Positions 3 through 26,666 of a stretch of DNA of 37,091 bases are shown piece by piece. The position numbers were made by a program, and so were the translations under genes. How positions within the stretch are numbered: position 1 is the first letter of the stretch; each line of letters begins with the position of its first letter. The notes below the pieces were generated by a model that did no database searches, had not been told where the DNA came from, and saw only the letters and a program-made list of their open reading frames with translations. This DNA is from an uncultured Verrucomicrobiota bacterium (GTDB taxonomy: Bacteria; Verrucomicrobiota; Verrucomicrobiia; Verrucomicrobiales; Akkermansiaceae): the NCBI GenBank assembly GCA_913063525.1, contig CAJXYV010000008.1, positions 1-37,091 of the forward strand. Direction: 5' to 3'.

Positions 3-1613
3 GAGATTTGCGCAGCGCGGGAAAACGCGATTTCCTACGGCTGGGAAGACGCCGAGTACACGGCCACAGACATCCGCGATCTCAAAGGATCGTCGGCTTT
101 CACGGTAAAGAAGCGGGGTGAAGTGCTGGGCGATGTCGAGCTCGGCATTCCCGGCAATCACAACATTCTCAATTCCCTGGCGGCGATTGCGCTGGCCGAC
201 AGCTGCGGCGCGGAGTTTGCACTGGTCGCCCGCGCCTTGGCGACTTTCGCCGGGGCCAAGCGCCGCTTCGAGACGAAGTATCTGTCGCCGAACTACCGCA
301 TCATCGACGACTACGGCCACCACCCGACCGAACTCGCGGCGACTCTCCAAACCGCCCGCACGCTGAAGTCGAAGCGGCTGGTGGTGCTGTTTCAGCCGCA
401 CCGCTACACGCGGACCAAGGCGCTGGCCGATGATTTTGGCAAAGTCCTGCAAGCGGCGGATCTGGTTTTCATCACGGATGTTTACGCCGCTTCGGAAAAG
501 CCGATCAAAGGCATTTCTGGCCAGACCTTGGTCGAAGCGATGGGAGCGAACGGCGATGTCCCCTGCACCTACGTCCCCGATTTAGCGACGGCGCATCACG
601 CGGTCGGCCACGCGCTCCATCCGGGTGATTTGTTGATCACGCTGGGCGCAGGCAATGTCCATGAGGCGGGGGCGCGGATCGCGGCGGATTTGAAGATTCT
701 CGAAGAGATGCGCGGGTTGATGCCTGCGGGCGAAATCGACGGCAAACTTTACGAGCCGATGAGCCGCCACACGACATTGTTGGTGGGTGGTCCGGCCCAG
801 TACTGGATGGAGCCGCACAGTTTTTACGGCTTTGCGTTCCTCGTCGATTACTGCCGCGAGCGCGGCATTCCGGTGCGGGTGGTGGGCCGAGGTTCGAACC
901 TGTTGGTGCGCGATGGTGGCATCCGCGGTGCGGTGATTCATCCGACGGGCGGGGTTTTCTCCGAAGTCATCGTCGATGGCAAAGGTCATATCACCGCGGG
1001 AGCGGGCGCTAGGCTCAAAAAACTGGCAAGTCTTGCGGGTGCCAGCGGAATCGGCGGCTTCGAGTGGATGGAGGGAATCCCCGGCAATGTGGGCGGAGCG
1101 CTGCGCATGAATGCGGGTGCGATGGGCATTGAAATGTTCGACCAAGTGGTGCGCGTGACTTTCCTCGACGAAGACGGCGTCATCCGCACCCGCGAGCGCG
1201 ACGAGATTGTCACCCAATACCGCAACGTGCCTGAGTTGCGGCGGAACTTTGCGTTGCAAGCGGTCTTCAAAGGCAAAGCTGATTCGGCGGCGAACATCAA
1301 GGAGCGCTGGGATGCGTCGCGCGAAAAGCGCAAGGCCAGCCAGCCGATCGCGGCTTCCGCGGGTTGCACTTTCAGAAATCCCGAGGAGGTTCCTGCAGGC
1401 CGTGTGATCGACTCAATGGGGCTGAAGGGAAGCACGTGTGGCAAGGCGGCGATTTCGGAAATCCACGGGAACTTTGTGGTTAACCAAGGCGGCGCATCCG
1501 CACTGGAGATTCTAACACTCATCGAATTCATCCAAGAAAAGGCGCGCACCGAGCGTAGCGTGGAACTCGAAACCGAGATCAAGATCCTCGGCGAAGAAGA
1601 AGCTTCATTTTAA
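3..1613 (+). CDS. murC-murB: MurC-MurB fusion (UDP-MurNAc-L-Ala ligase / UDP-MurNAc dehydrogenase), 5' end outside window
   Basis: The reading frame is open through the left edge, so the N-terminal half of MurC is missing. The first ~235 residues are the middle and C-terminal MurC domains: LGIPGNHNILN, the DDYGHHPTE motif, FQPHRYTRT, and LGAGNV near 640-660. From about 770 a complete MurB follows: GRGSNLLVRDGG (FAD-binding region, ~890-930), EGIPGNVGGALRMNAGA (~1070-1120), SAGCTFRNP with Cys at the usual Ser/Cys catalytic position (~1357-1383), and the closing LETEIKILGE. It looks like the shorter type II MurB. MurC adds L-Ala to UDP-MurNAc in the cytoplasm. MurB reduces enolpyruvyl-UDP-GlcNAc with NADPH and FAD, which is the preceding step, so one polypeptide carries two consecutive reactions. 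The gene lies 12 bases before ddl in a dcw cluster. No stop or restart is visible between the domains, so I read it as a genuine fusion. Confidence 0.95.
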   Translation, partial: EICAARENAISYGWEDAEYTATDIRDLKGSSAFTVKKRGEVLGDVELGIPGNHNILNSLAAIALADSCGAEFALVARALATFAGAKRRFETKYLSPNYRIIDDYGHHPTELAATLQTARTLKSKRLVVLFQPHRYTRTKALADDFGKVLQAADLVFITDVYAASEKPIKGISGQTLVEAMGANGDVPCTYVPDLATAHHAVGHALHPGDLLITLGAGNVHEAGARIAADLKILEEMRGLMPAGEIDGKLYEPMSRHTTLLVGGPAQYWMEPHSFYGFAFLVDYCRERGIPVRVVGRGSNLLVRDGGIRGAVIHPTGGVFSEVIVDGKGHITAGAGARLKKLASLAGASGIGGFEWMEGIPGNVGGALRMNAGAMGIEMFDQVVRVTFLDEDGVIRTRERDEIVTQYRNVPELRRNFALQAVFKGKADSAANIKERWDASREKRKASQPIAASAGCTFRNPEEVPAGRVIDSMGLKGSTCGKAAISEIHGNFVVNQGGASALEILTLIEFIQEKARTERSVELETEIKILGEEEASF

Positions 1614-1625
1614 TTTGAAAACATC

Positions 1626-2552
1626 ATGTTGAGTCACAAAAAAATCGCAGTTCTCATGGGTGGGCCCGGTTCCGAGCGGGCCGTTTCGCTGGCATCGGGC
1701 AATGCGGTTTTGAAGGCGTTGCAGGGGCTGGGCCTCGATGCGGTGGGCGTGGATGTCACCCGTTTTGAGATCGATCTGCCCGTGGGCACGGATCTCGCCT
1801 TCAATGTGATTCACGGGACTTTTGGCGAAGATGGTCGTTTGCAAACGATCCTCGAAGGCATGGGTGTGCCGTACACCGGCGCGGGGGCGACGAGCAGTCG
1901 CATCGCCTTTGATAAGAATCTGGCTAAAGCCGCGTTTGTTGAACACGGCGTGCCAACGCCACGGGCTGAAATCATCGATGTTTCCGGCGGACCGCGCTTG
2001 CCATCGTTTCCCGCTCCTTTTGTGGTCAAGCCGCCGCGCGAAGGTTCCAGTGTGGGAGTCCACATCGTCCGCAACCAAGCAGACGCCGAAGCAGCGATGG
2101 CAGACGCTGCGAAATATGGCGACGATATTCTCGTCGAGGAATTCATCGAAGGCCAGGAACTCACCGTGGGCGTTCTGAATGATGTTGCGCTGCCGATCGT
2201 TCACATCATTCCGCCCGATGGTGTTTATGATATGGCCAGCAAATATCCATGGCTATCGGGTGCCAAGGGCAGCCAATACATTTGCCCAGCGGATCTCGAT
2301 GCAGAAACCACCCGCATCGTTCAAGAAGCCGCGCTGGCGGCACATCGCTCGCTGGGCGTGGAGATTTATTCGCGGGTGGACGTGTTGCTGGATTCCCAGA
2401 ACCGCCCGTTTGTGCTGGAAGCCAACACCATCCCCGGCATGACGGAAACCAGTCTGCTGCCCAAAGCAGCGGCGGCCACAGGAATCGCTTTCCCTGAATT
2501 ATGCAAAACCATCGCCGAACTCTCCCTTCAACTTCGCTCCGCCCATGTTTAA
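1626..2552 (+). CDS. ddl: D-alanine--D-alanine ligase
   Basis: This 308-residue cytoplasmic ATP-grasp enzyme joins two D-Ala for the peptidoglycan stem peptide. Visible family motifs are GGPGSERAVSLASG at the N-terminus, IHGTFGEDGRLQ (~residues 62-73), KPPREGSSVGV in the ATP-grasp fold (~138-148), EEFIEGQELTVGV, and the metal/ATP site SRVDVLL...LEANTIPGMTETSLLP near the C-terminus. The length is normal for Ddl. The omega-loop region reads YDMASKY followed by PWLSGAKGSQYICP, where E. coli DdlB has YDYEAKY and a shorter stretch, so the loop looks a few residues longer and lacks the second Tyr. The start is the ATG 12 bases after murC-murB; no clear Shine-Dalgarno site precedes it. The stop codon overlaps the ftsQ start by 8 bases, suggesting translational coupling. 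Confidence 0.95.
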   Translation: MLSHKKIAVLMGGPGSERAVSLASGNAVLKALQGLGLDAVGVDVTRFEIDLPVGTDLAFNVIHGTFGEDGRLQTILEGMGVPYTGAGATSSRIAFDKNLAKAAFVEHGVPTPRAEIIDVSGGPRLPSFPAPFVVKPPREGSSVGVHIVRNQADAEAAMADAAKYGDDILVEEFIEGQELTVGVLNDVALPIVHIIPPDGVYDMASKYPWLSGAKGSQYICPADLDAETTRIVQEAALAAHRSLGVEIYSRVDVLLDSQNRPFVLEANTIPGMTETSLLPKAAAATGIAFPELCKTIAELSLQLRSAHV

Positions 2553-3513
2553 AAACCATATCAGCAAGTCCCGCCGCCGCTCCCACTCCAAGGTGCTGGA
2601 AGTCCGTGTCATGTCGCCGCGCATCGCTTGGTTCGGCTTTCTCAAGTTCGCGGGCGGTTTGACCAAACTGGCCCTCATTCTCGCGGTCATCACTGGCATT
2701 GGTTGGGGCGTCTGGCTGGGAGTCCAGCACGCGTTTTACAACAACCCCGATTTCCGCCTTCAGGTCATCGAGCTCAACGCCAACCCGGTCATCGACGAAG
2801 TCGGACTGGCCAAGACCGCAGAGATCGACCTAACCGCCAACCTTTTCACCATCGATGTGAAAGAGGTGGAGCGGAAACTCAAGAGCTTGCCTGCCATCGC
2901 CGAGGCTCATGCAGAGCGCCATTTGCCTGGCACACTGGTGGTGCAAGTGACAGCCCGCACCCCGCGGGCGTGGATTTCTTGTCCCGCTGTGGGCCTGCCC
3001 GAAGTGCGGCACGCCGGCGCGATGCTGGTCGATCGCGATGGCATCGCTTATCCCTGCCCGGAGCTGCAGCTTGAATCCGCGCTGCGACTTCCTGCGATCC
3101 AGCTGCCTGCGTCTGGGGGAACTCCGATTGTGGCTGGACAAAAAATCCAGCAGCCCGAACTGGCGCACTGCTTTCATTTATTAGACTCTGCCTGTGAAGC
3201 TGATCCCGAGGCGACGCAATGGGTGGAATCGGTAAAACAAGTCAACGAGTGGTCGCTGCTGCTCGTCACTCGCCAAGGCACAGCGGCGACATTCGGGGTG
3301 GGTGACCACGACCGCCAGATCCGTAGCCTGCGCGTGGCGATGGATCATTCCAGCGCCAAAGGTTATGTGATTGAAACGATCAATCTGATCCCCAAGCACA
3401 ACGTGCCGATCACAGTCCGCAATGAAACGCCAGCGGCCAATGCAGTGCCTGTACCCGCTGCGCGTCCCGCCGCAGTCCTAGTCAAGCGCCGCGCTCCGTC
3501 CACTCACAACTGA
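2545..3513 (+). CDS. ftsQ: Cell division protein FtsQ/DivIB
   Basis: This is a 322-residue bitopic membrane protein. A basic cytoplasmic N-terminus (KSRRRSHSK) is followed by one hydrophobic segment at about residues 38-58 (LTKLALILAVITGIGWGVWL). A POTRA-like region follows, with FRLQVIELNAN, then NLFTIDVKEVERKLKSLPAIAEA and a following ARTPRAWI stretch, which is the typical FtsQ domain order. The C-terminus is Pro/Ala-rich. In other bacteria FtsQ links FtsA/FtsZ in the cytoplasm to FtsB/FtsL and the septal synthase in the periplasm. Position between ddl and ftsA is the canonical dcw order. Sequence similarity alone is weak, as usual for FtsQ, so synteny and topology carry much of the call. 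Confidence 0.9.
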   Translation: MFKNHISKSRRRSHSKVLEVRVMSPRIAWFGFLKFAGGLTKLALILAVITGIGWGVWLGVQHAFYNNPDFRLQVIELNANPVIDEVGLAKTAEIDLTANLFTIDVKEVERKLKSLPAIAEAHAERHLPGTLVVQVTARTPRAWISCPAVGLPEVRHAGAMLVDRDGIAYPCPELQLESALRLPAIQLPASGGTPIVAGQKIQQPELAHCFHLLDSACEADPEATQWVESVKQVNEWSLLLVTRQGTAATFGVGDHDRQIRSLRVAMDHSSAKGYVIETINLIPKHNVPITVRNETPAANAVPVPAARPAAVLVKRRAPSTHN

Positions 3514-3537
3514 TTCATTTTTCCCAATTCTACCCCT

Positions 3538-4752
3538 ATGGCACGTCGCACGAAGATTCACGTTGGACTCGAAATCGGCAGCAGCAAGACCTGCATGGTC
3601 GTCGGCGAGGTGAAGGCCGACAGTGCCGTCAAAATTTTAGGGATTGGCGTTACCAAAACCGCCGGGGTTCGCAAAGGGGAAATCTATGATTTCTCCCAAG
3701 CCCGCGCCTGCCTCAAGGATGCGCTGGCGAAGGCGGAGGATGCCAGCGATGTCGAAATCGGCAGCGTCTATCTGGCGGTGACAGGGGCCCATATCCAAGG
3801 CATCAACCACCGTGGAACCTATCGACTGCCCGATGGCGAGCCAACGGTGACACCCGAGCATGTCGAGGAAGCGCGCAGCATCGCCCGCGAAGTCCACATT
3901 CCCCAAGACCACGTTTATCTTCACCCGATTATCCGCAATTACTGGCTCGATGGGCTGGAGCATTCCATGAGCCCTGTCGGCCTTTTCGGCAAAACCGTGG
4001 AAGCCGACTTCCACGTGGTTCACGGCATCGGCACCCGCATTCAGAATAGCATCAAACTCGTCCGCGAGATGCCTTTGGAGGTCGACGATATTGTGTTCTC
4101 GCCCATCGCGACCGCACAAATGGCGCTCGACCGCGAGCAGCGTGAACGCGGAGCGCTGGTGATCGACATCGGCGGTGGCACTACCGATTACGCCCTCTAT
4201 CTCAACGGGGCCATCGCCGCATCGGGCTGCATTCCGGTGGGTGGTGACCACATCACCAATGACATCCACTTAGTCACTGGCCTACCATTTTCATCGGCGG
4301 ATCGTCTGAAAATCACGGAAGGAGATGCCTCGGCAGACCCCGTTCGCTCCGTCGGGATTGCGAAGCTAACGGACGATCGCGGATTTGCAGAAGTCGAAGT
4401 GAGCCGCAGCATTCTCAACGAAGTGATCCGCCAGCGCCTCGAAGAAACGCTCAAACTCGTGCGCCAACGCCTGCCTGTCGGCTCGGTCGGGGAGATCGGC
4501 GCGGGAGTTTTCCTCACGGGCGGCACCAGCCTGATGCGCGGGTTCAGCGAGCTCGCCTTCGATGTCTTCGGTCGCGACATTTACCGCCCCGAGCTGCCGG
4601 AGCTCAGCGGAACCCAGGCGAGCTTCCGAGATCCGCATTACGCGACAGCCATCGGCCTGATCCGCTACGCCCAGATTCTGGATGCCGAGCGCGCGAAGCC
4701 GCCCGGGATCTTTGGCAAGATCGGCCGCATGTTCTGGTCGTCTGGACAATAA
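3538..4752 (+). CDS. ftsA: Cell division protein FtsA
   Basis: This 404-residue actin-fold ATPase tethers FtsZ to the membrane. The N-terminal phosphate-1 motif (VGLEIGSSKTCMVVGEV), the 1C domain around YLAVTGAHIQGINHRG, the phosphate-2 motif (LVIDIGGGTTDYALY, ~residues 206-220) and the adenosine motif (GVFLTGGTSLMRGFSELA, ~323-340) are all visible. The C-terminus (GIFGKIGRMFWSSGQ) reads as a short amphipathic helix, matching the membrane-targeting sequence of FtsA. The ATG start lies 24 bases after ftsQ and 30 bases separate it from ftsZ, so the three genes form one unit. Length and motifs are ordinary for the family. Confidence 0.96.
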   Translation: MARRTKIHVGLEIGSSKTCMVVGEVKADSAVKILGIGVTKTAGVRKGEIYDFSQARACLKDALAKAEDASDVEIGSVYLAVTGAHIQGINHRGTYRLPDGEPTVTPEHVEEARSIAREVHIPQDHVYLHPIIRNYWLDGLEHSMSPVGLFGKTVEADFHVVHGIGTRIQNSIKLVREMPLEVDDIVFSPIATAQMALDREQRERGALVIDIGGGTTDYALYLNGAIAASGCIPVGGDHITNDIHLVTGLPFSSADRLKITEGDASADPVRSVGIAKLTDDRGFAEVEVSRSILNEVIRQRLEETLKLVRQRLPVGSVGEIGAGVFLTGGTSLMRGFSELAFDVFGRDIYRPELPELSGTQASFRDPHYATAIGLIRYAQILDAERAKPPGIFGKIGRMFWSSGQ

Positions 4753-4782
4753 AATCTCAACTCCTCAAATTCAAAAACCGCC

Positions 4783-6390
4783 ATGATTCCCTACATCCGC
4801 GATCCGAAGCAAACGATCCCCACCTCCTCCGTAAAAATCATCGGTCTCGGCGGGGCCGGGGCGAACATGCTCGAACGCATCGCGCTCGACGGCATGGAAG
4901 GAGCCGAGTTGCTGGCCCTCAACACCGATCAGCGTACCCTCTCCAGCGGGCTCGCCTTGGAGAAAATCCAGCTCGGCGTGAATCTCACCAAGGGTCTCGG
5001 CACGGGCGGCGATCCTGAATTGGGACACCGCGCCATCTTGGAATCGGAAGACCAGCTCCGCGCTTCCATCAAAGGTCGCCGCATTGTTTTTCTTTGCACC
5101 GGTCTCGGCGGCGGCACGGGTTCCGGCGCGGCCCCCATCGTCACGCGGATTGCCCGCGAGGAAGGCGCGTTCATCGTCGTTTTCGCCACCATGCCCTTTG
5201 CCTTCGAAGGCAAGCGCAGGCGCGAACAGGCGGAGACCGCTCTCAACGAACTCGCGGTTTTGTCCAATGCCCTTGTCACCTTCGACAACAATCGGATGGG
5301 CGAGCTCGTGCTCGCCAAACAAGGGGTCCACGAAGCCTTCGCTGCCGCGGATCACATGATTTGCGAATCGATCAAGGCCGTCATCCGCCTCGTCGTTCGC
5401 CCGGGCTTGATCAATGTCGGCCTCGATGAACTGGTGAGCGCACTGCGGACCAATCGCTCCCGCTGCCTCTTCGGCTCCGGCATCGCCAATGGCAAAGACC
5501 GCGCGGCCAGCGCCCTGAAAAACGTGCTCAACAGCCCGCTGCTCGACCAAGGGGCCCTGCTAAAAAAAGCCCAAACCGTTCTCGTTCACCTCTGCGGCGG
5601 CGAGGACCTCACACTGTTCGAGATCGAACTCCTGATGCAGCGCTTGCAGAAATTCATTCCCGAAACGGCCCACGTGCTCTTCGGCGCCGCCATCGATCCC
5701 GCCATGGGCGACTCGCTTTCCATCACTCTGATCAGTGCGCTACCCGAAGATTCACTGGCCATCAAATCGCGCGATTCGCTCAGCCAACATTCCCAAGAAA
5801 ATCCGATTCTCGATCCAGATCAAGAAATCGATCCAGAGCTGATGGCCGAGGACCCGGTTCCAGCGCTGCCCACCCCACCCGAGAACCCGCCTGAACCGAC
5901 AGTCGCTGCAGAGCCAATCGCCGTGCATGCTTCAGAAGCTCCGCTATTTGACGCCGCAGCGGCAGAATCGGCACCGGAGCCCGAGATGGAACTCCTCGCA
6001 GCCCAGGCCATCGTCGAGCCGCTGCCCGGACCCGAAAAGCCTTCCGAACTTCTCCCGCTAGTCGAAGATGAGATTCCAGAATCACCCGAAACTGCAGAAG
6101 CTGCGCCCGAGGTTCCAGCCGTAGCCCCAAGTCCGAAAAAGAAGTCGCCGTTCTCATCGCCATGGAGCAAACCCAAAGAAGCTGCGCCTCTCGAAGAACC
6201 GATTTTCCAAGAACCCGCAGCGCCCGCCGAAGCCGAGCCACCCAAGCTCAAACTGGGGATCAAAGCTTCTGGCCCGCAAAGCGAGTTGTCGCTCGATGCC
6301 GCGCCGCGCGGCCGCTTCGAAGGCGAAACCCCCAATGTTTATGAGGGCCAAGACCTCGACCTGCCACCCTTTCTGCGGAAGAAAAAATAA
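4783..6390 (+). CDS. ftsZ: Cell division protein FtsZ, divergent T7 loop and long acidic linker
   Basis: This 535-residue tubulin-like GTPase should form the Z-ring. GLGGAGANML (residues 21-30) and the tubulin signature GGGTGSG (109-115) are intact, so GTP binding is expected. The T7 synergy loop, normally N-x-D-x-x-D, reads N211-V-G-L-D-E216 (bases 5413-5430). The first catalytic Asp is Gly, and the second is Glu with an Asp one residue earlier. Residues ~325-510 form a Pro/Glu/Ala-rich linker, much longer than in E. coli FtsZ (383 residues in total). The protein ends with a normal C-terminal peptide (DLDLPPFLRKKK), the usual FtsA-binding tail. Position after ftsA makes the identity certain; the change in GTPase chemistry is inference. 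Confidence 0.95.
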   Translation: MIPYIRDPKQTIPTSSVKIIGLGGAGANMLERIALDGMEGAELLALNTDQRTLSSGLALEKIQLGVNLTKGLGTGGDPELGHRAILESEDQLRASIKGRRIVFLCTGLGGGTGSGAAPIVTRIAREEGAFIVVFATMPFAFEGKRRREQAETALNELAVLSNALVTFDNNRMGELVLAKQGVHEAFAAADHMICESIKAVIRLVVRPGLINVGLDELVSALRTNRSRCLFGSGIANGKDRAASALKNVLNSPLLDQGALLKKAQTVLVHLCGGEDLTLFEIELLMQRLQKFIPETAHVLFGAAIDPAMGDSLSITLISALPEDSLAIKSRDSLSQHSQENPILDPDQEIDPELMAEDPVPALPTPPENPPEPTVAAEPIAVHASEAPLFDAAAAESAPEPEMELLAAQAIVEPLPGPEKPSELLPLVEDEIPESPETAEAAPEVPAVAPSPKKKSPFSSPWSKPKEAAPLEEPIFQEPAAPAEAEPPKLKLGIKASGPQSELSLDAAPRGRFEGETPNVYEGQDLDLPPFLRKKK

Positions 6391-14564: not shown

Positions 14565-14615
14565 CCGTCAAGCAAGCGTCTTCATGGATTTTGTTTCGGG
14601 GGAAGAGAAGATGGG

Positions 14616-14759
14616 CTCGCGCAAAGCCGCCAAGACGCCAAGGAAGAAAAGACCCGACAACGGGGATTTCAGGTTTCCGATAAATCGCGACAGCTTACAA
14701 TCCCATCCCAAAACCCAAAAACCCCCTCTTCCCTTTGCGTCTCCGCGCCTTTGCGCGAG
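14616..14759 (+). repeat. Palindromic repeat copy A (~144 bp)
   Basis: Starts CTCGCGCAAAGCCGCC and ends GCGCCTTTGCGCGAG, so the ends are inverted repeats of each other. The core carries an internal stretch with TTTCCGATAAATCGCGAC. It is followed by a 21-bp spacer (14760-14780) and then copy B. The facing ends of A and B form a long imperfect hairpin (about 14729-14813) with the 21-bp spacer as its loop. It fills most of the 368-base gap between the acidic-protein gene and the GxxExxY gene. Confidence 0.85.
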
Positions 14760-14780
14760 CCCCTCTTTGAATTAGATCAT

Positions 14781-14924
14781 CTCGCGCAAAGCCGCCAAGC
14801 CGCCAAGGAAGAAAAGATTCGGCAATGGGATTTCAGGTTTCCGATAAATCGCGACAGCTTACAATCCCACCCCAAAACCCAAAAATCCCCCTCTTCCCTT
14901 TGCGTCTCCGCGCCTTTGCGCGAG
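14781..14924 (+). repeat. Palindromic repeat copy B (~144 bp)
   Basis: Nearly identical to copy A, with the same orientation, length and 165-bp period. Its right arm (GCGCCTTTGCGCGAG) ends 9 bases before the stop codon of the GxxExxY gene. Confidence 0.85.
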
Positions 14925-14932
14925 CCCCTTCT

Positions 14933-15319
14933 TCAACCTTCAGGGAGATGGTTCACCGCACGCACAATCCCATCACGCATCAGCGTTGCCCCAAAATTCA
15001 AAAGCAACCCAAGCTTTTTATCCGCGAGACGGAGGTAAGTTTGTAATTGCTTGCGATGAACCTGCGCAATGTTTTCAACTGATTTAAGCTCGAGAATCAC
15101 CAGATCATTGATGACAAGATCCGCGCGGAAGCCTTCGTTAAAGTGAACGCCGTCGTAGGCGATCGGAATGGGAATTTGGCGGCCACAAGAAAGGCCGCGC
15201 CGCGTGAGAGCATGGGCCAGCGTGACTTCATAAACCGATTCCAACAACCCAGGGCCAAGGTCTTGGTGAAGTTTGACTGCGGCATCAACGACGATTTTAC
15301 TGATTTCGTTTTCGGTCAT
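14933..15319 (-). CDS. GxxExxY protein (PD-(D/E)XK nuclease-like)
   Basis: This 128-residue protein belongs to the GxxExxY family. Its motif reads GLLESVY (~residues 23-29), after the usual opening ISKIVVDAAVKLHQDLGPG. The later FRADLVI and ILELKSV (~residues 68-85) supply the D and E-x-K of a PD-(D/E)XK nuclease core, so a nuclease-like fold is likely. The biological function of this family is, to my knowledge, not established. The start was placed at the ATG at 15319 (MTENEISK); an ATG two codons earlier is possible. The gene lies exactly between repeat copies B and C, where the 21-bp loop lies at the AB and CD junctions, so it looks like a cassette captured inside the repeat array. No Shine-Dalgarno site is visible. 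Confidence 0.88.
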   Translation of the reverse strand: MTENEISKIVVDAAVKLHQDLGPGLLESVYEVTLAHALTRRGLSCGRQIPIPIAYDGVHFNEGFRADLVINDLVILELKSVENIAQVHRKQLQTYLRLADKKLGLLLNFGATLMRDGIVRAVNHLPEG

Positions 15320-15346
15320 GATCATGGGGGGAAAAGGGAAGATAGT

Positions 15347-15482
15347 CTCGCGCCAAGCCGCCAAGACGCCAAGGAAGAAAAGACCCGGCAATGGAGATTT
15401 CAGGTTTCCGATAGATCGCGGCACCCTACAATCCCCCCCCAAAAAAACCTCTTCCCTTTGCGCCTTCGCGCCTTTGCGCGAG
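15347..15482 (+). repeat. Palindromic repeat copy C (~136 bp)
   Basis: Same family as copies A and B, slightly shorter. It starts CTCGCGCCAAGCCGCC 27 bases upstream of the GxxExxY start and ends CGCCTTTGCGCGAG. The bases before it (GGGGAAAAGGGAAGAT) match those before copy A, so the duplicated stretch extends beyond the arms. Confidence 0.83.
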
Positions 15483-15503
15483 CCCCTCTTTGAATTAGAT
15501 CAT

Positions 15504-15648
15504 CTCGCGCAAAGCCGCCAAGCCGCCAAGGAAGAAAAGATTCGGCAATGGGATTTCAGGTTTCCGATAAATCGCGACAGCTTACAATCCCCCCCCAAAA
15601 ACCCAAAAATCCCCCTCTTCCCTTTGCGCCTTCGCGCCTCTGCGCGAG
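15504..15648 (+). repeat. Palindromic repeat copy D (~145 bp)
   Basis: Follows copy C after the same 21-bp spacer (15483-15503) found between A and B, and ends 16 bases before the L,D-transpeptidase stop codon. The C/D junction (about 15452-15536) forms the same imperfect hairpin as the A/B junction. Confidence 0.83.
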
Positions 15649-15664
15649 CCCCTCTTCCCCCCCA

Positions 15665-23880: not shown

Positions 23881-23981
23881 CTTGAAAACTTGGCGGCTTG
23901 GCGGCTTCGTGCGAGGTGATCTGATTCAGAGGGGCTCGCGCAAAGGCGCGAAGGCGCGAAGGGAAGAGGGGGAGATTTTCA
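23881..23981 (-). repeat. Dispersed hairpin repeat copy E
   Basis: Reverse-oriented relative of copies A-D. An arm of the type GGCGGCTTGGCGGCTTCGTG is followed by a loop GTGATCTGATTCAGAGGGG and the opposite arm CTCGCGCAAAGGCGCGAAGG. The arms form an imperfect stem. It lies between the second 95-bp repeat and the TacT-like module. Confidence 0.8.
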
Positions 23982-24803: not shown

Positions 24804-24909
24804 CTGGAAAACTTGGTGATTTGGTGGCTTCGTGCGAGGTGATCTGATTCAGAGGGACTCGCGCAAAGGCGCGAAGGCGCGAAGGGAAGAGGAGATTTTC
24901 GGATTTTCG
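24804..24909 (-). repeat. Dispersed hairpin repeat copy F
   Basis: Contains GGAAAACTTGG, the arm ending GGCTTCGTGCGAG, the loop GTGATCTGATTCAGAGGG and the arm CTCGCGCAAAGGCGC, then GGGAAGAGGAGATTTTC. Same orientation as copy E. It separates the TacT-like gene from the ORF6N gene, 20 bases and 15 bases from each. Confidence 0.8.
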
Positions 24910-25637: not shown

Positions 25638-25731
25638 CTGGAAAACTTGGCGGCTTGGCGGCTTCGTGCGAGGTGATCGAATTCAGAGGGCTCGCGCGAA
25701 GGCGCGAAGGGAAGAGGGGGGCGGATTTTCA
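25638..25731 (-). repeat. Dispersed hairpin repeat copy G
   Basis: Contains GGAAAACTTGGCGGCTTGGC, an arm ending CTTCGTGCGAG, the loop GTGATCGAATTCAGAGGG and the arm CTCGCGCGAAGGCGC, followed by GGGAAGAGG. The preceding bases (TTGGATTCCCGGTCTGG) also match those before copy H, so the repeat unit is longer than the hairpin. It lies between the ORF6N and HigBA modules. Confidence 0.8.
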
Positions 25732-26554: not shown

Positions 26555-26666
26555 AATTTGGAAAACTTGGCGGCGGCTTCGTGCGAGGTGATTGAATTCA
26601 GAGGGGCTCGCGCAGAGGAGCAGAGGCGCGAAGGGAAGAGGGGATTTTTGGGGTTTTGGGGGGCGG
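26555..26666 (-). repeat. Dispersed hairpin repeat copy H
   Basis: Contains GGAAAACTTGGCGGCGGCTT, an arm ending CGTGCGAG, the loop GTGATTGAATTCAGAGGGG and a somewhat diverged arm CTCGCGCAGAGGAGC, then GGGAAGAGGGGATTTTTGGGG. This last stretch also matches the interior of copies A and B read in reverse, linking E-H to the A-D family. It lies between higBA and purE in a gene-free stretch of 250 bases (26476-26725). Confidence 0.8.

Follow-up and report, generated by a model that had tools for sequence, protein, structure and literature searches.

Matched palindromic arms around GxxExxY genes suggest a previously undescribed minimal, probably selfish, genetic element

A GxxExxY gene of an uncultured Akkermansiaceae bacterium lies inside an array of palindromic repeats, which raises the question whether the repeats are a site where a gene has been captured, or whether gene and repeats form one mobile unit. 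The window, i.e. the whole stretch of 37,091 nucleotides that was analysed, is contig C8 of the draft genome G000 (3.0 Mb). Hereafter, L designates the left purine-rich arm of a hairpin and R its reverse complement on the right.

The region 14600-15660 had been described as four ~145-bp repeats in the same orientation, with a common 21-bp spacer between copies A and B and between copies C and D, facing ends that form a long imperfect hairpin, and 422 bp with a complete GxxExxY gene between B and C. The repeats were confirmed base for base as unit A (14613-14760, the hairpin spanning ~14608-14767 with an L arm at ~14608-14651, an interior of ~88 nt and an R arm at ~14725-14767), unit B (14781-14925, the R arm ending at 14924), unit C (15347-15483, a near-copy of A whose L arm starts at 15347) and unit D (15504-15649, a near-copy of B); B, C and D are 95%, 86% and 91% identical to A, respectively. 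The A/B spacer (14760-14780), taken in the preliminary description as an "empty loop", and the C/D spacer (15483-15503) are identical 21-nt sequences, CCCCTCTTTGAATTAGATCAT, and the facing ends around them indeed form the hairpin, with 28-nt arms that are 82-86% complementary and 21 nt apart. The 422 bp extend from the R arm of B to the L arm of C and contain the gene on the minus strand (14933-15325), with an ATG start and 130 intact codons encoding a PDDEXK_3/TIGR04256 protein of 130 aa. Two features had been missed, the gene-free copies of the hairpin elsewhere in the window (see below) and the fact that each of the units A-D is an inverted repeat in its own right, with 36-nt arms that are 86% complementary and separated by 88 nt. 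Therefore, each of the four is a full L-R hairpin, and the gene lies between two pairs of them. Dimer C-D is a near-copy of dimer A-B at a distance of ~725 bp, and the window copy is a GxxExxY gene with two complete hairpin units per side. The best alignment of one flank of this locus against the other scored 52, compared to a maximum of 25 for composition shuffles. Its neighbours are a hypothetical gene on one side and an L,D-transpeptidase-like gene on the other. Elsewhere in the window (123-6390), a murC/murB-like fused ORF is followed by ddl-, ftsQ-, ftsA- and ftsZ-like genes, as read from the translations only.

The window protein matched TIGR04256 (E = 4.6e-38, 130.2 bits vs a cut-off of 35) and PF13366 (E = 1.1e-37, 129.4 bits vs a cut-off of 22); PF13366 was its sole Pfam match, and a Y1/HUH transposase domain (Transposase_17/PF01797) was not found in it. 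In 53 sequences, residues E29, D69, E79 and K81 (E79-x-K81) are invariant and Q93 and Y97 (Q93-x3-Y97) near-invariant. The conserved motif, D..ExK..QxxxY, contains the PD-(D/E)XK active-site pattern D..(D/E)xK, and these residues fit what we take to be a RecB/Cas4-type active site. The AlphaFold2 model, which is confident (pLDDT 93.6), exhibits a restriction-endonuclease-like fold that is best matched by the Cas4-like SSO0001 (Z 9.1), followed by a restriction-endonuclease-like protein (Z 8.5); Hjc resolvases match it at Z ~6.6, a Z under 8 not being decisive. Sequence search gave no solved homologue at E values up to 1. The PD-(D/E)XK-like fold previously attributed to the family is thus borne out by the predicted structure and the conserved residues, and the protein is predicted to have a RecB/Cas4-type nuclease fold. 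The dN/dS of GxxExxY is ~0.05-0.1, indicating purifying selection. A role as a defence system was set aside, PADLOC having given only weak partial matches (PDC-M36A, E = 0.001).

The arrangement seen in the window proved to be general. Arms were detected by local alignment of the 350-bp left flank with the reverse-complemented right flank, a score of at least 30 being counted (shuffle maximum 25). The window's own genome contains seven GxxExxY genes, all seven enclosed by facing, purine-rich, ~9-nt-periodic arms that match within a locus and differ between all seven loci (AACCGCAAAGACGCAGAGGTCGCGAAGGGACGCAAAG, AACCACAGATGAACGGGATGGACGCAGATGG, AACCACGAAAGGCACGAAAGAGCACGAAA, GACCACGGAGACACGGAGG and others). 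One of these copies (L037, G000:C6) has no N-terminal motif region and seems to be degenerate, yet arms can still be recognised around it. If the array had a wider meaning, a consistent arm-gene-arm structure should recur in relatives and GxxExxY genes should be enriched in the loop position, as the preliminary description had proposed, and both were found. In the own and related genomes, 31 of the 34 loci with usable flanks reached the threshold, as did 34 of 40 further copies in relatives. A set of 75 named loci, chosen by a motif scan and hence biased to canonical GPGLLE members, covered Verrucomicrobia, Bacteroidetes, Cyanobacteria, Acidobacteria, Planctomycetes, Chloroflexi, Proteobacteria, Archaea and others. 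Arms were present at 62 of these loci (83%) vs 17 of 1,393 control positions (1.2%) in the same loci; ~17% of the named loci presented no detectable arms. Control genes in the related genomes were seldom enclosed (ParE toxins 1/24, ORF6N genes 3/15). Chance inverted repeats as the source of the arms were ruled out by the shuffles and the neighbour controls.

Over 129 armed loci, the arms have a median length of 35 nt, are 89% identical and lie ~28 nt from the profile match, and their outer tips are often TTAACCRC, TGAACCGCC or CTCRCGC. The commonest layout is L-gene-R, with a minority of L-R-gene-L-R, and the L-R-L-R-gene-L-R-L-R layout is restricted to the window and its closest relative, L105. 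Since L105 lies elsewhere, next to an argB-like gene, the double-hairpin layout is not one orthologous locus. L105 and another locus, L067, come from MAGs titled Akkermansia muciniphila with loci homologous to those of the window's genus, and the species label may be wrong. GxxExxY is rare on plasmids (8 distant copies) and on viral contigs (one match).

What lies between facing arms was listed with a simple arm pattern over 0.82 Mb around 80 loci (the named loci and the window), a GxxExxY-centred sample in which the ratio is biased. Of 83 facing-arm pairs, 46 are gene-free with gaps of 5-106 nt and 35 surround GxxExxY with gaps of 373-608 nt; the remaining two pairs, the only others with a gap above 200 nt, are 322 nt apart with no gene between them and 1,035 nt apart with weak arms, respectively. 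In the complete genome G003, the matches listed comprise short gene-free pairs and one gene-sized pair, which holds GxxExxY. Different genes in the same repeat context, as in an integron, were not found in this GxxExxY-centred sample, and the absence of other enclosed genes is informative despite the way it was drawn. As gene-sized loops almost never hold other genes, an open capture site for arbitrary cassettes, one of the two readings of the preliminary description, is not supported, in line with the low enclosure of ParE and ORF6N genes.

The other reading, in which gene and repeat are one mobile unit, is strongly supported by the matched arms across phyla and by three further observations, i.e. 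arms that track the protein subfamily, covariation between arms, and the whole unit at two unrelated sites. Arm similarity correlated with protein identity in the relatives (rho 0.33 vs 0.08 ± 0.04 when permuted within genomes) and between cross-phylum loci (rho 0.18 vs 0 ± 0.046 permuted), with 0/500 permutations as high. Such a correlation is also expected from joint descent, so that it demonstrates the unit but not yet recognition of the arms by the protein. It is close to certain that gene and arms are one co-inherited unit. Many GxxExxY copies lie at orthologous sites, which reads as vertical inheritance, and no compared pair of same-genome copies exceeds 60% protein identity, giving no sign of recent proliferation.

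In the window's genus, metH appears to be split at one place by an old insertion in most members (loci L268-L296 of related genomes), while in outgroups and two genus members it is uninterrupted there, with a 42-nt linker. Many species keep an intact unit at this site, some present internal deletions that leave gaps of 442, 413, 332, 258, 129 and 128 nt, and in some the unit has been lost, yet metH remains split. The comparison of empty and filled sites that had been suggested for strains was made here among relatives, which have filled, eroded and element-free metH sites. No recent insertion was resolved among the compared sites and no target-site duplication is visible at metH, where the insertions are old only. 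The aligned metH-site arms show an own pairing of 0.87 and a cross pairing of 0.65, the arms having been chosen by self-alignment, which inflates own pairing. The ratio of compensated to uncompensated changes was 1.20, compared to 0.11 for the null (null maximum 0.29). Palindromy is therefore kept while the arm sequence changes, by compensatory covariation.

Sixteen metH-site proteins form one group, whereas the metH-site proteins L040 and L067 group with those of the pheS-pheT site and carry the CGCCAAG arms of the pheS-pheT-site units; an AU test spoke against all metH-site rows forming one side of a branch (p = 4e-5). Homology between the metH-site and pheS-pheT-site units stops at the arm tips, TGAACCGCC...GGCGGTTCA, and the flanks outside are unrelated; the moved unit is thus delimited by terminal inverted repeats. 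Given this homology up to the arm tips at two sites and the grouping of L040 and L067, one transfer between the sites is needed. The arms go with the protein subfamily, not with the site. G053, from another family, has a different subfamily with ACAGGATT arms between pheS and pheT, and a further GxxExxY copy adjoins aspS.

The R-21nt-L hairpin also recurs without a gene at four places in the window between 23.9 and 26.65 kb (23889-23975, ~24811-24892, 25646-25719 and ~26561-26644, the R arms of the second and fourth having been read by eye), all of the same family; their loop is conserved and of the GTGATCTGATTCAGAGGGG type. The preliminary description had missed these copies, which make the hairpin a real dispersed repeat. 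Between 23889 and 26644 the four hairpins alternate with a GNAT acetyltransferase-like gene, an ORF6N-domain gene and a HigB/HigA-like pair; this stretch resembles an accessory-gene array between hairpins, and its genes are not inside matched L-gene-R arms. A known Rfam family for the hairpins was rejected, the only matches being sub-threshold ones to plant microRNAs (30 bits vs a gathering score of 100) that were taken as chance. The hairpin-motif excess per Mb correlated with GxxExxY density at rho 0.46 and with the density of four-helix-bundle (PF05635) genes at rho 0.72. The motif is also present in genomes without GxxExxY (zero-copy genomes vs the rest, p = 0.74), and these genomes, together with the better PF05635 correlation, mean that a RAYT-like dependence of the hairpins on GxxExxY is not shown. 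Across genomes G000-G058 the excess varies widely, and a host factor, e.g. palindrome tolerance, could underlie both the excess and PF05635 density.

PF05635, the 23S rRNA intervening sequence (IVS) protein family, offers a parallel, since in the same genomes its genes are flanked by arms at 21 of 25 loci. The arm period is 7 nt for PF05635 (autocorrelation 0.56) vs 9 nt for GxxExxY (0.39), and in a leave-one-out assignment by four-mer content 65/66 and 19/21 arms were given to the right family. The Coxiella IVS has a 28-bp terminal stem with AGAAGA followed by GACAGAT/GACAGAA heptamers (PMC4990558). Judged by sequence, its ends look like the arms found here, and rRNA IVSs would seem to be one member of a broader class. 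Tentatively, and with more doubt than for the unit itself, GxxExxY and four-helix-bundle/IVS genes may constitute one class of "hairpin-loop genes", in which a single protein would read a family-specific 9- or 7-nt code in its own arms and so keep, copy or move the hairpin. The PF05635 loci of the relatives (L147-L176) have matched arms of 7-nt period that are similar to the Coxiella heptamers.

Together, these data suggest that the gene and its hairpin make up a genetic element of a minimal and probably selfish kind that had not been described before. Our best inference, with a probability of about 0.6, is a minimal selfish element whose nuclease acts on the palindrome around its own gene. 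The heritable unit of ~0.5 kb would consist of an outer arm tip, a purine-rich ~9-nt arm, the PD-(D/E)XK gene and the reverse-complement arm. The RecB/Cas4-like protein would recognise the palindrome of its own arms, in the form of a hairpin or cruciform of DNA, and could process these ends and thereby maintain the unit and, on rare occasions, copy or move it. Gene-free hairpins may be miniature derivatives of the unit. The logic would be that of RAYT transposases on REP/REPIN palindromes, with another enzyme.

Most likely, the element works like RAYT-REP or the rRNA IVS. RAYT genes, which evolve fast, lie between inverted REPs with which they co-evolve (PMC2817692). In RAYT-REP/REPIN systems (PMC2817692, PMC3116915), as here, a small nuclease-like gene lies between inverted palindromic repeats, repeats and protein co-evolve (for GxxExxY, linked inheritance alone could give the correlation), and gene-free copies are dispersed singly or arrayed, the window having BIME-like arrays. 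The differences are that the GxxExxY enzyme belongs to the PD-(D/E)XK type (RecB/Cas4-like) and not to the HUH/Y1 transposases, that its arms have a greater length (median 35 nt) and a 9-nt period and differ for each own-genome copy, and that no dependence of GxxExxY-type hairpin abundance on gene presence has been shown. RAYT-REP is the closest logic, with another enzyme. With the 23S rRNA IVS (PF05635; PMC4990558) the GxxExxY unit has in common a stem of terminal inverted repeats with one small ORF in its loop, arms composed of short tandem purine-rich units, a size of ~0.4-0.5 kb and a patchy, presumed selfish distribution; it differs in protein family (PF13366 only, no S23p/PF05635), in arm code (9 vs 7 nt) and in location, the GxxExxY copies with neighbours read lying outside rRNA. 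Homing endonucleases in rRNA insertions (PMC11270868) are likewise nuclease genes in site-bound insertions with filled and empty sites among relatives, whereas the GxxExxY unit has palindromic arms and no intron, intein or known recognition site. MITEs and single-gene insertion sequences resemble it in their terminal inverted repeats, gene-free miniatures and repeat-delimited unit, but the GxxExxY unit is without a known transposase, no target-site duplication was seen, its arms are unique to each copy and no recent intragenomic expansion was seen. Hjc and Cas4/RecB-type nucleases have the fold and active-site residues in common with GxxExxY, without detectable sequence homology. Hjc acts on four-way junctions, and a cruciform is a four-way junction; to our knowledge, these nuclease families are not encoded inside palindromes.

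Several other explanations of the matched arms were weighed. The arms could act at the RNA level, by forming a stem that encloses the mRNA. A precedent is given by the 23S rRNA intervening sequences, in which the S23p gene lies in the loop of a stem that is excised by RNase III. The identical layout of the PF05635 loci with their heptad arms, the resemblance of the Coxiella stem and heptamers, and the position of units in the gap between adjacent genes (e.g. pheS and pheT), or splitting metH, are all consistent with this. Nevertheless, sense-strand changes compatible with G:U were not in excess among the stem mismatches (150 vs 156, p = 0.78), and at the metH site the unit is found in either gene orientation. 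An RNA-level element is considered unlikely. The absence of G:U bias favours a DNA-level over a sense-RNA stem, and a sense-RNA stem as the sole constraint is not supported by the wobble test. A little less likely again is a gene useful to its host, e.g. in DNA repair, with an autoregulatory or protective palindrome whose arms are an operator or terminators; such a gene would be inherited vertically and not be selfish. Long retention at orthologous sites, the low dN/dS and a location on the chromosome, with copies on plasmids or viral contigs being very few, would suit such a gene; its patchy presence, the erosion and loss at metH, the unit common to different sites, the gene-free hairpins elsewhere and the splitting of a metabolic gene by an insertion would not.

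That the hairpins are landing sites for unrelated cassettes, GxxExxY being one of these, is suggested by the layout of the window locus and by the occurrence of more than one GxxExxY subfamily at both metH and pheS-pheT. We consider it very improbable, in view of the gene-sized loops with almost only GxxExxY (in a GxxExxY-centred sample), the ORF6N and ParE genes mostly outside arms, and arms that move with the protein subfamily and do not stay with the site. Template switching during replication perfects quasi-palindromes, and a passive origin, in which it makes and matches the palindromes and the gene is there by chance or hitchhiking, would also agree with a hairpin abundance not tied to gene presence. 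Such an origin is the least credible of these explanations, as it leaves unexplained both the excess of arms at GxxExxY loci over controls and the family-specific arm codes in the same genomes. The preferred reading remains a nuclease that would act on the palindrome of its own unit.

GxxExxY is a very widespread family without an assigned function and is rarely named in the open literature. In the titles and passages of open-access papers that name GxxExxY or PDDEXK_3/PF13366/TIGR04256, no description of a link between GxxExxY and repeats was found. The tie to its own palindrome provides a direct, testable substrate for the nuclease, and a possible explanation for the dispersed periodic repeats of many genomes (CACAGAG, CGCAAAG, ACAGGATT and similar). 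Two orphan puzzles, GxxExxY and the 23S rRNA IVS protein, are joined as one architectural class with different arm codes. If the proposal of hairpin-loop genes is true, the rRNA IVS would be no more than the most familiar member of a pan-bacterial class with a new mechanism of hairpin mobilisation, which in the GxxExxY family would be PD-(D/E)XK-based.
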